Shown piece by piece: positions 36,841-43,014 of a DNA stretch of 48,282 nt. Source of the stretch: Chitinimonas sp. BJB300. GTDB taxonomy: Bacteria > Pseudomonadota > Gammaproteobacteria > Burkholderiales > Chitinimonadaceae. A model generated the notes under the pieces. It worked only from the letters and a program-made list of their open reading frames with translations. It made no database searches and had not been told where the DNA came from. The DNA lies in NCBI RefSeq assembly GCF_002735695.1, contig NZ_PDZH01000018.1, positions 1 through 48,282 on the forward strand. The letters are read 5' to 3'. The translations under genes were made by a program, and so were the position numbers. Position 1 is the stretch's first letter, and the number at the start of each line of letters is the position of its first letter.

Positions 36841-36930
36841 CAGGTTACGTTGGGTTAAGTGCAGTTATGGTGCGGCTGAATAGATGGTTATTGGTTTATG
36901 TTAGTTAAGTAAGTAGTACGGGAGATGAAG

Positions 36931-37488
36931 ATGGAAAAGACGCTGCTAGTGCTGGCTGTGCTGGCATTGAGTGGTTGCGCAGCAATGTCGGAGGCGGAAT
37001 GTCGTACCGGTGATTGGTATGGTGTGGGCGAGCGGGATGGTCGAGGCGGCAGTGGCAGCCGGCTGGGTGATTACGCAGATGCCTGCCGGAAGGCGGGCGT
37101 ATTGCCCGACCCTGCCGAATACTCCAGAGGACGTGAACGTGGACTGCGGACGTATTGCACGCCCGAGAATGGCTATCGAGTGGGTATAAGTGGCGAGTCG
37201 TATCAGAGTGTCTGTACACCGGAAACACAAGCAGGGTTTCTGCGTGAGTACGAACGCGGTCGGGCACGTTATGAATTGCGTCGTGACCTTGATGCCCTCA
37301 GAGAGGATTTTAGCCGCTGGGATAGAGAGAACAGCCGCTTGAACGACTTGATTGGTAAGACCAACAACGAAGAGGAACGGCGCAGATATATGCAGCAGCG
37401 CGATGCCAATGAACGGAATCGGCGTGACGGGCGCATCCGGCAGCTGATATTGGAAACCCGTTGGAACCTGCTGCCTAACGAATACTGA
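36931..37488 (+). CDS. DUF2799-type lipoprotein
   Basis: About 185 residues. The signal peptide ends in a lipobox (LALSGC), so the protein should be lipid-anchored and face the periplasm. The mature part has GDWYGVGERDGRGG, YSRGRERGLRTYC and FLREYERGRARYEL, the repeated Gly/Arg-rich units of the DUF2799 family, which has no known function. The C-terminal third is a charged coiled-coil-like helix. ATG 36931 is favoured because GGGAG lies seven bases ahead; ATG 36925 adds two residues. It is a single gene with its own terminator. Confidence 0.82.
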   Translation: MEKTLLVLAVLALSGCAAMSEAECRTGDWYGVGERDGRGGSGSRLGDYADACRKAGVLPDPAEYSRGRERGLRTYCTPENGYRVGISGESYQSVCTPETQAGFLREYERGRARYELRRDLDALREDFSRWDRENSRLNDLIGKTNNEEERRRYMQQRDANERNRRDGRIRQLILETRWNLLPNEY

Positions 37489-37494
37489 TTAACA

Positions 37495-37515
37495 AAAGCC
37501 GGCTGATGCCGGCTT
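37495..37515 (+). terminator. Hairpin terminator after the lipoprotein gene
   Basis: AAAGCCGGC, loop TGAT, GCCGGCTTT, then GTCTTG. It is a strong stem with a weak T tract. Confidence 0.75.
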
Positions 37516-39769: not shown

Positions 39770-40702
39770 TCAAACCCCATTATGAGCAGCATCCAACGGT
39801 TGAATATTGCCCGATCCAACGGGTGCATCTTTCGGTAGGAAGGGGTTTTTAATCTGGATGATCCGGCGATTCTTCAGATTGGCTTTTAGAATGACTTGGC
39901 TGTTATGCCGATTGAATACTTTCTCAAAGCTGCCATCCGCCAGCATCATTTGAAGGCCTTTTTCGATTCGCTGTGCTAATACGATGTCTTTACGGCTGGT
40001 AAAGAAGTAATAAGGCCAAAGGTAATAAATTACCAAGTGCTGCTCAATACTCAGGCCAGACAGTTCTGAATGGTTAAGTTCGTATTCGTCGAATACCTCT
40101 GTAATACCACGTGGAAATAGGTCTATGTATTTCTCTGTGACCATCCGAAACAGGTCTTTGTAATTATGTTCGCTTACCGAAATGCCATTTTCCCTATAAA
40201 CCGCATTGTCACCCCAACCCCTTCCTTGTCCTATTTTTAGGTTCTTAAGGTCGTCCAGCGTTTTTATTTTATCGATGTCCGCTTGTTTGCCTGCATTAAT
40301 CAGAGCGATGCGATAACCCAGCAGGTCTTTACGAAGTGAAATCCGAATGGCTTGGAGGTCTTTCTCTTTATCGGGCGATGTAGAGCTCCATATCACATTG
40401 ATTTTGCCAGTGTTGTTTTTTATTTCCATAATATAGCGGGTCTCATTCATGACGAACGTACTGGGCATCAATTTATAGGGGCCGTATTCCTTTACCGTGC
40501 GTTCGAGCGCCATTTGCAGGAATTCGACTAGGTCGTCAAAACGGCGGTCTGTGGGACTTTCTGGCGCAGGGTAAATGATGTTCTGTATGTTTTCTGGGGT
40601 GGACGTGGCCACACTATCATCCGCTACAACCGGTAATGCGCATAACGCCAGCAATGAAAGAGCTGTACCAAAGGGTGTGATTGAGAACAGCTTGTCGAAC
40701 AT
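39770..40702 (-). CDS. Exported protein of the periplasmic-binding-protein fold, function unknown
   Basis: A 310-residue protein with a signal peptide (about residues 1-27, cleaved near PVVADD). The body resembles solute-binding proteins: IKTLDDLKNLKIGQGRGWGDNAVYRENG looks like the lobe-2 start, and LAQRIEKGLQMMLADGSFEKVFNRH like the C-terminal helix of SBP family 3. The N-lobe is divergent. There is no lipobox and no permease beside it, so a sensor or signalling role is possible. The base composition is lower in GC than in neighbours, which hints at separate origin. It is flanked by gaps of about 250-350 bases. Confidence 0.75.
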   Translation of the reverse strand: MFDKLFSITPFGTALSLLALCALPVVADDSVATSTPENIQNIIYPAPESPTDRRFDDLVEFLQMALERTVKEYGPYKLMPSTFVMNETRYIMEIKNNTGKINVIWSSTSPDKEKDLQAIRISLRKDLLGYRIALINAGKQADIDKIKTLDDLKNLKIGQGRGWGDNAVYRENGISVSEHNYKDLFRMVTEKYIDLFPRGITEVFDEYELNHSELSGLSIEQHLVIYYLWPYYFFTSRKDIVLAQRIEKGLQMMLADGSFEKVFNRHNSQVILKANLKNRRIIQIKNPFLPKDAPVGSGNIQPLDAAHNGV

Positions 40703-40948: not shown

Positions 40949-42667
40949 TCAGTGAACACCGAGCGCCGCCAGTTGGGCTGGGCTAAGCTGGCGTTTTAGC
41001 TCTTCCAACCGTTGTCTGGCCCCATTTTCCCGTTCAGCGGCCCTTTGCAGCCAACGGTAAGCTTCCAATTTATCGGCAGGTACACCCCGGCCAGACAAGT
41101 AGAGCAGCGCCAGATTGTATTGTCCTGTCGCGTTGTCTTGCTCGGCAGCCAAGCGAGAATAGCGTACGGCTTCTGCATCGTCCCGACGTGTGCCACGCCC
41201 TGTCATCAGCATAAAGCCGAGATAAGCCTGGGCCTCCGCATGGTTTTGCTCTGCTGCGCGGCGATACCAAGCGACGGCTCTTTCGTTGTCTGCCGCCACC
41301 CCCAGGCCTTTGCGATAGCGAAGTCCCAACTGGGTTTGTGCGGCTGGGTCGCCGGCATCGGCTGCGCTGCGTAGGTCTTCCAATCTCAGGCCGGCCAATG
41401 CAGTTGTCTCGGGTATTTGAATCGGCGCTGCCGCTGCAATGGGGGTTGGGGCCAATGGGGTGCTATCAAAAGCGGGCATTGAAGCCGTTTGCTGCAGCGC
41501 TTGCGGCGGCTTGCTGGCATGCTGTTCTTTGGAACTGAGCAGGGCAGCGCCCACTGCTGCTACCATGATCAAACCTACGCCCACTCCCATCAGTTTGCCC
41601 CGGCTTCCTGTTGACACGGACTTGATGTCAGCGCGTGGCAAGGTGTTGGGGCCGGGCGAAAACTCATCGTCCAGCCGTAAAGTAGGTGCACCCGCCAGAA
41701 GTTGTGCAGCATGCAAAACTGGGGTGGGTTGCATGCTGAATACAGCACCGGTTTGCGGGGCTTCGGGAATGACCAATGCGCGCTGGTCTATTTCGAGGGA
41801 TTCAAAGGCCTTGATGCAGTTATCGAGGCTGGTGAAACCACCTGACAACACAGGTTTTTGCATGCGCTTGATGAGCGCAGGCAGGGCTTCCTGGTGTGCA
41901 TCTTTGTAGTAGTCGATACGATGCAGCGAGATTTGCTTAAACCAATGGCCCAGCGCGTACAGGTCGGTACGCCAATCGAGTGAATTGATGCTGAGTTCGG
42001 GGATCAGCACGCTATCGTATTGATGCCGGCCGGTTTCGCTCAATTCATACCAGCTGGTTTTACTGTGCTCGCCGATAAGTTTGGCGTAGGTTTGCCAGTC
42101 GCGTTGTACAGCTTCCCGCATCGCGGGGGCCAAATAAGCAGCATCGGGGCTGGTCAGGTCGATAAACAGCGGTTTTTCTATTCGTTGTTGCGGATTACGC
42201 GCCACGCCAAAGTCAATCAGCTTCAGGCTATTAAAATCAATCTCGCCCTTGTCATTCTGTGCCAGCACGAAGATATCAGGCCGCAGCCCACCATGTACCA
42301 GTCCAAAGCGGTTCAGGTGTGCCAGTGCACGTAGGCTGGCCAATATGAGCCGTACCAAATCGCTGGAACGCTGGAACGGGTGCTCTAGCTCCCCTGCCGG
42401 TGTGGCAAGCCAGTGGGTAAGTGGGTGGCCGCTGGCTTCGCTGACCAGCATACGTCTGTCCAGATCTACCGCTACAAAACGGGCTGCATAGCGGCTATCA
42501 CGCTGAAAGCTTTGCAGCATGCGGGCTTCGTGACACAGCCAATAGTCAGTGGCAGGGTGCTCAGGTGACAAGCGCTTGCACCAACGTTCGGTGTCGCGCT
42601 GGCTGAGGAACTTGTCGAGTTGAACAGGTCGTTCGGCCTGCGCAGGGATTTCGGCGTGATCGGTCAT
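40949..42667 (-). CDS. Membrane protein with kinase-like (pseudokinase) domain and Sel1 repeats
   Basis: A 572-residue protein from ATG 42667 (a GTG at 42685 would lie inside a hairpin). Residues ~10-300 have a protein-kinase fold: a possible VAIK-type Lys in WCKRLSP, Glu in CHEARML, and DFG in LKLIDFGVAR. The catalytic loop reads HGGLRPDIF where active kinases have HRDxKxxN, so the catalytic Asp and Asn are missing. One transmembrane helix (GVGVGLIMVAAVGAALL, near 365) is followed by a Pro/Ala linker and three to four Sel1 repeats (AAQTQLGLRYRKGLGV and following) in the periplasm. It is codirectional with and directly behind minCDE. A scaffold or ATP-binding signalling role is likely; phosphotransfer is unlikely. 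Confidence 0.82.
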   Translation of the reverse strand: MTDHAEIPAQAERPVQLDKFLSQRDTERWCKRLSPEHPATDYWLCHEARMLQSFQRDSRYAARFVAVDLDRRMLVSEASGHPLTHWLATPAGELEHPFQRSSDLVRLILASLRALAHLNRFGLVHGGLRPDIFVLAQNDKGEIDFNSLKLIDFGVARNPQQRIEKPLFIDLTSPDAAYLAPAMREAVQRDWQTYAKLIGEHSKTSWYELSETGRHQYDSVLIPELSINSLDWRTDLYALGHWFKQISLHRIDYYKDAHQEALPALIKRMQKPVLSGGFTSLDNCIKAFESLEIDQRALVIPEAPQTGAVFSMQPTPVLHAAQLLAGAPTLRLDDEFSPGPNTLPRADIKSVSTGSRGKLMGVGVGLIMVAAVGAALLSSKEQHASKPPQALQQTASMPAFDSTPLAPTPIAAAAPIQIPETTALAGLRLEDLRSAADAGDPAAQTQLGLRYRKGLGVAADNERAVAWYRRAAEQNHAEAQAYLGFMLMTGRGTRRDDAEAVRYSRLAAEQDNATGQYNLALLYLSGRGVPADKLEAYRWLQRAAERENGARQRLEELKRQLSPAQLAALGVH

Positions 42668-42683
42668 GGTGGCGAATCGTGAC

Positions 42684-42744
42684 ACCGGCTTCGTAGCCGG
42701 TTTAGCGTTTGACTAATGGCGAGAAGCCGGTAAATCCCGGCTTC
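42684..42744. repeat. Two adjacent GCCGG hairpins between minE and the pseudokinase gene
   Basis: ACCGGCT-tcgt-AGCCGGT (42684-42701) and GAAGCCGG-taaatc-CCGGCTTC (42723-42744). They share a GCCGGCT-like core. No T tract follows, so they may slow or process the transcript rather than end it. Confidence 0.6.
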
Positions 42745-42750
42745 CCTTGT

Positions 42751-43014
42751 TTAGCGCTTCGTAGTCTCTGGCAGAACGATATTTACTTCCAGCACATCGT
42801 AGTCATCCTGCCGTTCCAGCGATACCTTGATGTCGTCCTGGCCAACGGCGACATATTTGGAAATGACGGCGATCAGCTCACGCTGCAAATCGGGCAAATA
42901 ATCGGGGCTGCCACGGCTGCCCGCACGTTCATGCGCCAAGATGATTTGTAGTCGCTCTCGCGCCACAGAGGCAGATTTCTTTTTGTTGCCAAGCAGATAG
43001 TCAAGAATTGACAT
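42751..43014 (-). CDS. minE: Cell division topological specificity factor MinE
   Basis: An 87-residue protein. The N-terminal [23 protein letters not shown] is the membrane-binding and MinD-activating segment, and the C-terminal half is the dimer domain. It stimulates MinD ATPase and drives the Min oscillation. It starts 3 bases after the minD stop, as usual for minCDE. Confidence 0.97.

Follow-up and report, generated by a model that had tools for sequence, protein, structure and literature searches.

The gene directly behind minE in the analysed stretch of DNA (the window, 48,282 nucleotides from Chitinimonas sp. BJB300) is best explained as coding for a single-pass inner-membrane pseudokinase that serves as a receptor or scaffold and is not a component of the Min machinery, a reading to which a probability of roughly 0.62 can be assigned. 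The gene, here called pk-sel1, and its parts are laid out as follows.

40949..42667, minus strand: the pk-sel1 gene, 572 amino acids counted from the ATG at 42665-42667, stop codon included
41777..42625, minus strand: pseudokinase domain, residues 21-303, with 50 of 283 positions invariant among 19 homologues
41534..41593, minus strand: predicted transmembrane helix, about residues 365-384, placed by hydropathy and flanking charge only and absent from the structural model
41387..41533, minus strand: variable linker, residues 385-433, with 0 of 49 positions invariant and low model confidence
40976..41386, minus strand: Sel1 repeats, residues 434-570, covered by three Pfam stretches and predicted to be periplasmic
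42751..43014, minus strand: minE, the next gene upstream, which is not counted among the functional parts

An earlier, sequence-only reading of this DNA had described an open reading frame with the catalytic loop HGGLRPDIF and a kept DFG, in which a kinase-like domain is joined through one membrane helix to Sel1 repeats, and had placed it behind minE on the same strand with two hairpins between. Both motifs are present in the translation, the architecture is borne out by Pfam, the structural model and hydropathy (its topology being a prediction), and the hairpins can be located at 42723-42744 and 42684-42701. The reading frame stands as well, and only its GTG start is doubtful. From that GTG, the frame (40949-42685, minus strand) encodes 578 residues, and residue numbers throughout follow this version, as in the earlier reading. 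Residue M7 was invariant in an alignment of 14 rows and then in one of 19. Because the homologues share M7, the ATG that encodes it is preferred, and the GTG probably lies 18 nucleotides too early. Pfam confirms MinE, MinD and MinC beside the gene in the window, and the gap between the end of minE at 42751 and the ATG of pk-sel1 is 83 nucleotides.

Homologues were sought by searching an order sample of 399 genomes, which included the genome of origin, with a pseudokinase-domain profile. Strong matches, all with E below 1e-119, came from 19 genomes and weak ones from another 19, the best of the weak reaching 7e-9 (G361). The strong matches are confined to three families, and the gene is present in every genome examined of each (f1, 10 of 10; f32, 5 of 5; f35, 4 of 4). 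A class sample of 369 genomes, again including the genome of origin, gave 18 weak partial matches in the other 368 (best E 1.2e-6). The nearest named homologue, at 79% in the best tblastn segment and 81% over the alignment, is that of Chitinimonas taiwanensis; NCBI taxonomy places Chitinimonas in the Neisseriales, Betaproteobacteria. Comparisons among homologues use one protein per genome (n = 19: G000-G009, G040, G043, G086, G089, G128, G130, G166, G168 and G201), and these rows are related by descent. Four of them, G001, G005, G006 and G166, were read from records L033, L035, L034 and L038 with the same coordinates.

The kinase-like nature of the N-terminal part is evident from several kinds of comparison. 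The Pfam Pkinase profile (PF00069) scores 20.2 bits on the window protein (E 4e-4), which is under the curated cut-off, and matches 11 of 13 homologue rows at E up to 1, with a best value of 3.4e-10. Profile comparison relates the pseudokinase to ULK1 at an E of about 1e-4. In an AlphaFold model built from 14 homologues, the domain is a two-lobed eukaryotic-like kinase fold (PF00069) predicted with a pLDDT of 72-96 (blocks of ten) over residues 21-300. The confident parts of this model span about residues 21-320 and 430-575, and residues 325-429, the putative membrane-helix region, fall under 50. Among the matches listed when the model was compared with the PDB (VIA-align), the N-terminal part finds kinases at Z about 17 (BRAF, TAO3 and PknB 5u94), and the C-terminal part finds Sel1 proteins, with LceB at Z 18.0. 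The N-lobe is short, and no Gly-rich loop can be recognised in it by eye. In the Pfam search at E up to 0.001, Sel1 is the sole family found, in three stretches at E 1.3e-26.

A single hydrophobic 19-mer is present in the window protein (KD mean 2.42), and the charge of +3 before it and +1 after it is consistent with an N-terminus that lies inside. A hydrophobic 19-mer past the kinase domain reaches a KD of at least 1.6 in 18 of the 19 homologues, with a weak segment in G008 (1.49). The charges on either side of the membrane segment are equal in G007, which counts against the topology prediction. Mean pairwise identity over the 19 rows is 0.58 for the pseudokinase and 0.57 for the Sel1 repeats, and it falls to 0.26 in the juxtamembrane region, 0.29 in the membrane helix and 0.21 in the linker. 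Conservation of both end domains but not of the middle is the pattern that a two-sided binding protein would show. Outside the catalytic residues, invariant patches occur at HPFQ-SS (102-108), E170-K171-D176 in the activation segment, HQE-P (264-269), and MQ and GG (275-283).

Three sites in the gene concern catalysis.

42575..42577, minus strand: beta3 Lys37, invariant in 19 of 19
42275..42295, minus strand: catalytic loop, residues 131-137, with HGGLRPD instead of HRDxKPx, the Asp missing in 19 of 19 and Arg135 and Asp137 invariant
42212..42214, minus strand: Asp158 of DFG, unchanged in all 19 rows; the Gly of DFG varies among Gly, Ser and Ala

Residues found without exception in the 19 rows are Lys37, Glu53 (alphaC), His131, Arg135, Asp137, Asp158, Phe159, Lys171 and Asp241, and the retention of Lys37 and Glu53 adds to what had been described before. 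The proposal that this domain is a pseudokinase is supported by the alignment. No row has the HRD Asp, which is replaced by Gly in 16, Ser in 2 and Cys in 1, and a homologue with a complete HRD motif, named beforehand as evidence against the proposal, is therefore absent from the set. His131 is always kept and is followed by GG, GS, GC, AS, CG or SG. The catalytic-loop Asn is lacking in the window protein and is kept in 3 of 19 rows (G043, G089 and G168, all from f35). Judged by its residues against an active kinase, the protein has the Lys, the Glu and the DFG Asp and is without the HRD Asp and the catalytic-loop Asn. This can be read simply as loss of the Asp ahead of the divergence of f1, f32 and f35, followed in some lineages by loss of the Asn. 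Phosphate transfer by this protein is thus likely absent, and the wording is kept at "likely" because Lys37, Glu53, the DFG Asp and D137, an Asp four residues past the lost HRD Asp, are all invariant.

The same residues can be viewed as those of an active, non-canonical phosphotransferase, in which Asp137 or another residue would act as the base while Lys37, Glu53 and Asp158 hold Mg-ATP. Invariance of K37, E53, D137 and D158 in all 19 rows over three families is to be expected if nucleotide handling is selected, and the WNK kinases, with their migrated ATP-binding lysine, provide a precedent (PMC12599244). Replacement of the catalytic-loop Asn in 16 of 19 rows, the unrecognisable Gly-rich loop and the variable Gly of DFG nevertheless make such an enzyme unlikely. 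Loss of the catalytic Asp throughout the homologues might also be the mark of a decaying kinase that persists as a functionless relic. This explanation was rejected on conservation and has very little to recommend it, given that all 19 rows are without a stop and that identity within f1 is far higher in the pseudokinase (0.76) than in the linker (0.30).

The region between minE and pk-sel1 bears on how the two genes might be transcribed, and it holds two hairpins.

42723..42744, minus strand: hairpin 1, behind minE, a GC stem with its T tract missing; an automated scan finds it terminator-like on the plus strand only, with 0.6 expected by chance
42684..42701, minus strand: hairpin 2, a 7-bp stem upstream of the ATG

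The 87-nt stretch with these hairpins folds at -34.5 kcal/mol (z -4.52), and none of 200 shuffles is as low. A terminator-like stem with a T tract stands behind minE at five of eight adjacent loci (G001, G002, G003, G004 and G006), each with a GC-rich stem and 5 or 6 T within 8 bases past the last G-C pair (0 of 500 shuffles each), under scan rules of our own setting by which G-T pairs count and T is counted from the last G-C pair. These eight loci leave out G005, a near copy of G006, and G007, where no minE is adjacent. A full terminator is missing from the others, as the window stem has no T tract, the best stem in G009 has no T, and G008 has no such stem. The automated scan listed no gene-strand terminator behind minE in L034, L033 or L010, because its rule wants T after the stem and the stem here runs into the T tract. 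It also listed no sigma-70-type promoter in those three records or in the window. Of the 18 regions upstream of pk-sel1, 9 contain a [TC]ATAAT box versus a mean of 0.9 in shuffles (0 of 1000 with as many), although this -10-like motif was chosen after some sequences had been viewed, the rows are related, G005 was dropped, and G201 contributes 81 bases only. The box takes the form TG(G/C)CATAATC in G004, G006, G007, G040, G086 and G128, GGCATAATC in G166, and CCCTATAATG in G043 and G089. Thus, in many relatives pk-sel1 is probably transcribed from a promoter of its own. The window's own upstream region has no [TC]ATAAT box, and since the T tract is missing there too, transcription in this species may run on from minE.

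A second copy of the stem AAGCCGG(6)CCGGCTT lies at 37496-37515, 8 nt behind the open reading frame at 36925-37488. Two exact matches to this design exist in the window, where 0.03 would be expected even with one mismatch allowed. Because the same design stands behind another open reading frame, hairpin 1 looks like a gene-end element, as the copy at 37496-37515 probably is.

The proximity to minE had suggested that the protein could link the state of the envelope to the division machinery. In f1, 9 of 10 genomes have minE directly upstream of pk-sel1 and in the same orientation, with full MinE matches adjoining in G000-G006 and G008. The contig of G009 starts inside minE, so that the last 19 residues can be read about 300 nt before pk-sel1, and in G007 the two genes are on different contigs. 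Within f32, MinE is matched in four of five genomes (G040, G086, G128 and G201) but never on the pk-sel1 contig, and G166 gave no match to MinE or MinC, both of which are found in its sister G201. In f35 (G043, G089, G130 and G168), a search that covered MinE and MinC but not MinD returned neither over the cut-off in any of the four genomes, the one MinC_C match, in G168, being below it. An assembly gap can mimic absence, as in G009, which fails the MinE search though its contig begins in minE, and the argument from f35 therefore rests most on the two near-complete genomes, G043 (99% complete) and G089 (91%).

The gene tree unites the minE-adjacent rows (support 100/98) to the exclusion of G007, and because they are a single clade, one event is enough to explain the adjacency. 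Other genes of the stretch are shared as well, namely clusters that we take to be dnaX and argG, together with recR (identified by Pfam), in 7, 4 and 6 respectively of the nine f1 loci compared. For this reason, the adjacency of pk-sel1 and minE is part of a wider synteny. The arrangement persists even in the fairly distant G008 (end branch 0.64), which counts against independence of the two genes.

These observations must be set against a role as a Min accessory, in which the Sel1 repeats would sense the envelope and the pseudokinase would recruit or modulate MinD/MinE or FtsZ. Such a role accords with the position directly behind minE in nine f1 genomes and with the missing T tract of the window, which makes co-transcription possible. 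It fits poorly with the four f35 genomes, with the separate contigs of pk-sel1 and minE in G007, G040, G086, G128 and G201, and with the single change on the tree that accounts for the adjacency. It was rejected as the main reading on the f35 genomes, G007 and the f32 contigs, and the chance that it is correct appears small. The proposed link to division consequently finds no support: conservation of the minE neighbour, when checked in relatives, proved to be restricted to one clade, and the observation that was expected to speak against the link, a gene far from min genes, was made in G007 and in four of five f32 genomes. The best explanation of the sequence data is that the protein is not part of the Min machinery and that its place behind minE reflects inherited gene order in one clade. 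As relatives keep the gene away from min genes or have no minC/minE match, its role is probably that of a general signalling scaffold linked to the envelope, not that of a division gene.

The neighbours in other genomes differ from family to family, and none common to f1, f32 and f35 was found in the loci compared. In f35, only 64-98 bases separate pk-sel1 from the end of an EAL-HDOD gene before it in G043, G089 and G130, which are all of the assessable cases (the contig of G168 is cut). A cheA-type gene stands upstream of the EAL-HDOD gene in the same three genomes, and cheV-type genes are nearby in G043 and G089.

L088 5109-8198, L041 3222-6330 and L090 4139-7161: the cheA-type and EAL-HDOD pair before pk-sel1 in f35

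Pfam supplied these identities for the genes of G089 and for the EAL-HDOD gene of G130, and the G043 EAL-HDOD protein is 89% identical to that of G089. In f32, G166 and G201 share opposite-strand c-di-GMP genes (GGDEF-EAL, and HD with DUF3391, by Pfam on the G201 copies). About 4.5-6 kb from pk-sel1 in G007 and G086 are genes for an SRP54 GTPase and a MinD/ParA-like ATPase (L039 1625-4151, by Pfam; L087 14564-17000, by similarity), which are presumably flhF- and flhG-like. This proximity concerns two genomes picked after the fact and may be due to chance. One might nonetheless imagine an unrecognised polarity or envelope hub of the three families that couples the cell wall to each lineage's positioning or motility machinery, with a nucleotide-loaded pseudokinase inside, Sel1 repeats outside, and the gene found near min in f1, near cheA and EAL-HDOD in f35, and near flhF/flhG-like genes in G007 and G086. 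We regard this as a long shot.

Downstream of pk-sel1, a solute-binding-protein and permease pair was considered as the true partner and rejected. A homologue of the solute-binding protein is present in 5 of 9 f1 loci (G005 not counted), and members of this cluster are absent from the f32 and f35 stretches examined, so the pair is only another lineage neighbour. Between pk-sel1 and the solute-binding-protein gene lies an open reading frame of 310 aa (39770-40702, minus strand) for which neither Pfam nor NCBIfam gives a match at E up to 0.001 and 38 loci give no other match at E 1e-6. It looks like a lineage-specific insertion, and its product is probably secreted, judging by eye from the N-terminus.

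Some known systems offer useful parallels. PknB has a cytoplasmic kinase, a single membrane helix and extracellular repeats. Like the protein described here, such PASTA-type receptor kinases have the kinase fold (PknB 5u94, Z 17.0 over 207 residues), but pk-sel1 is without the HRD Asp, has a short N-lobe, and bears Sel1 instead of PASTA repeats, Sel1 alone having been found in its Pfam search. A scaffold role is proposed by analogy with MviN of M. tuberculosis (ActPs3 family), a membrane-linked bacterial pseudokinase that recruits FhaA (PMC12599244). In ActPs3 the catalytic motifs are fully degraded, whereas pk-sel1 keeps the Lys and the DFG Asp, and no Sel1 repeats are mentioned for that family (PMC12599244). 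The GLW pseudokinases are also proteobacterial and have a membrane helix past the kinase domain, but their beta3 Lys is changed to Leu/Trp and their HRD to GLW, unlike the Lys and H131 present in 19 of 19 pk-sel1 rows (PMC12599244). The CP1 group is again proteobacterial, and some of its members have a single degraded motif, but it lacks a membrane helix and is associated with COG3899, whereas pk-sel1 has a predicted helix and, by Pfam, only Sel1 in its remainder (PMC12599244). In the Caulobacter polar scaffold PodJ, a membrane segment is likewise followed by a periplasmic Sel1 domain, as predicted for pk-sel1, and this domain may mediate peptidoglycan interaction (PMC9926476). The remainder of PodJ is disordered and coiled coil, as opposed to a kinase fold (PMC9926476). 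The pk-sel1 model contains no coiled coils of the PodJ type in its non-Sel1 part, where the longest helix preceding the membrane segment spans residues 107-126 and residues 325-364 are of low confidence. Membership in the MviN or PodJ kinds is not claimed, and the comparisons are by analogy.

Taken together, a receptor or scaffold of this kind would have its kinase part facing the cytosol and its Sel1 repeats bound to a periplasmic partner, be it a protein or a component of the cell wall. The pseudokinase would be a docking or switch module for a cytosolic partner, with the invariant non-catalytic patches as the docking surface. A nucleotide may be bound, since the nucleotide-holding residues are invariant, and ATP might be held as a structural or sensed ligand. 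Elsewhere in the genome there are three matches over the Pkinase cut-off, and any of these could phosphorylate or pair with pk-sel1.

According to a 2025 review, bacterial pseudokinases are largely unexplored by experiment and fall into two groups, one in which all three motifs are divergent and one in which the ATP- and metal-binding motifs are (PMC12599244). The combination seen in pk-sel1, with nucleotide-holding residues kept and the catalytic Asp lost in 19 of 19 rows, defines neither group as presented there. A literature search whose reach largely excluded subscription journals returned no description of this protein. The family is noteworthy as a pseudokinase variant that pairs intact nucleotide-holding residues with a Sel1 exterior, and it might serve as a clean test of the function of a dead kinase, possibly still competent for nucleotide, that is coupled to repeats in the periplasm. 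A further lesson is that a position immediately after an operon, even one shared by nearly every member of a family, does not by itself mean that a gene has the operon's function.
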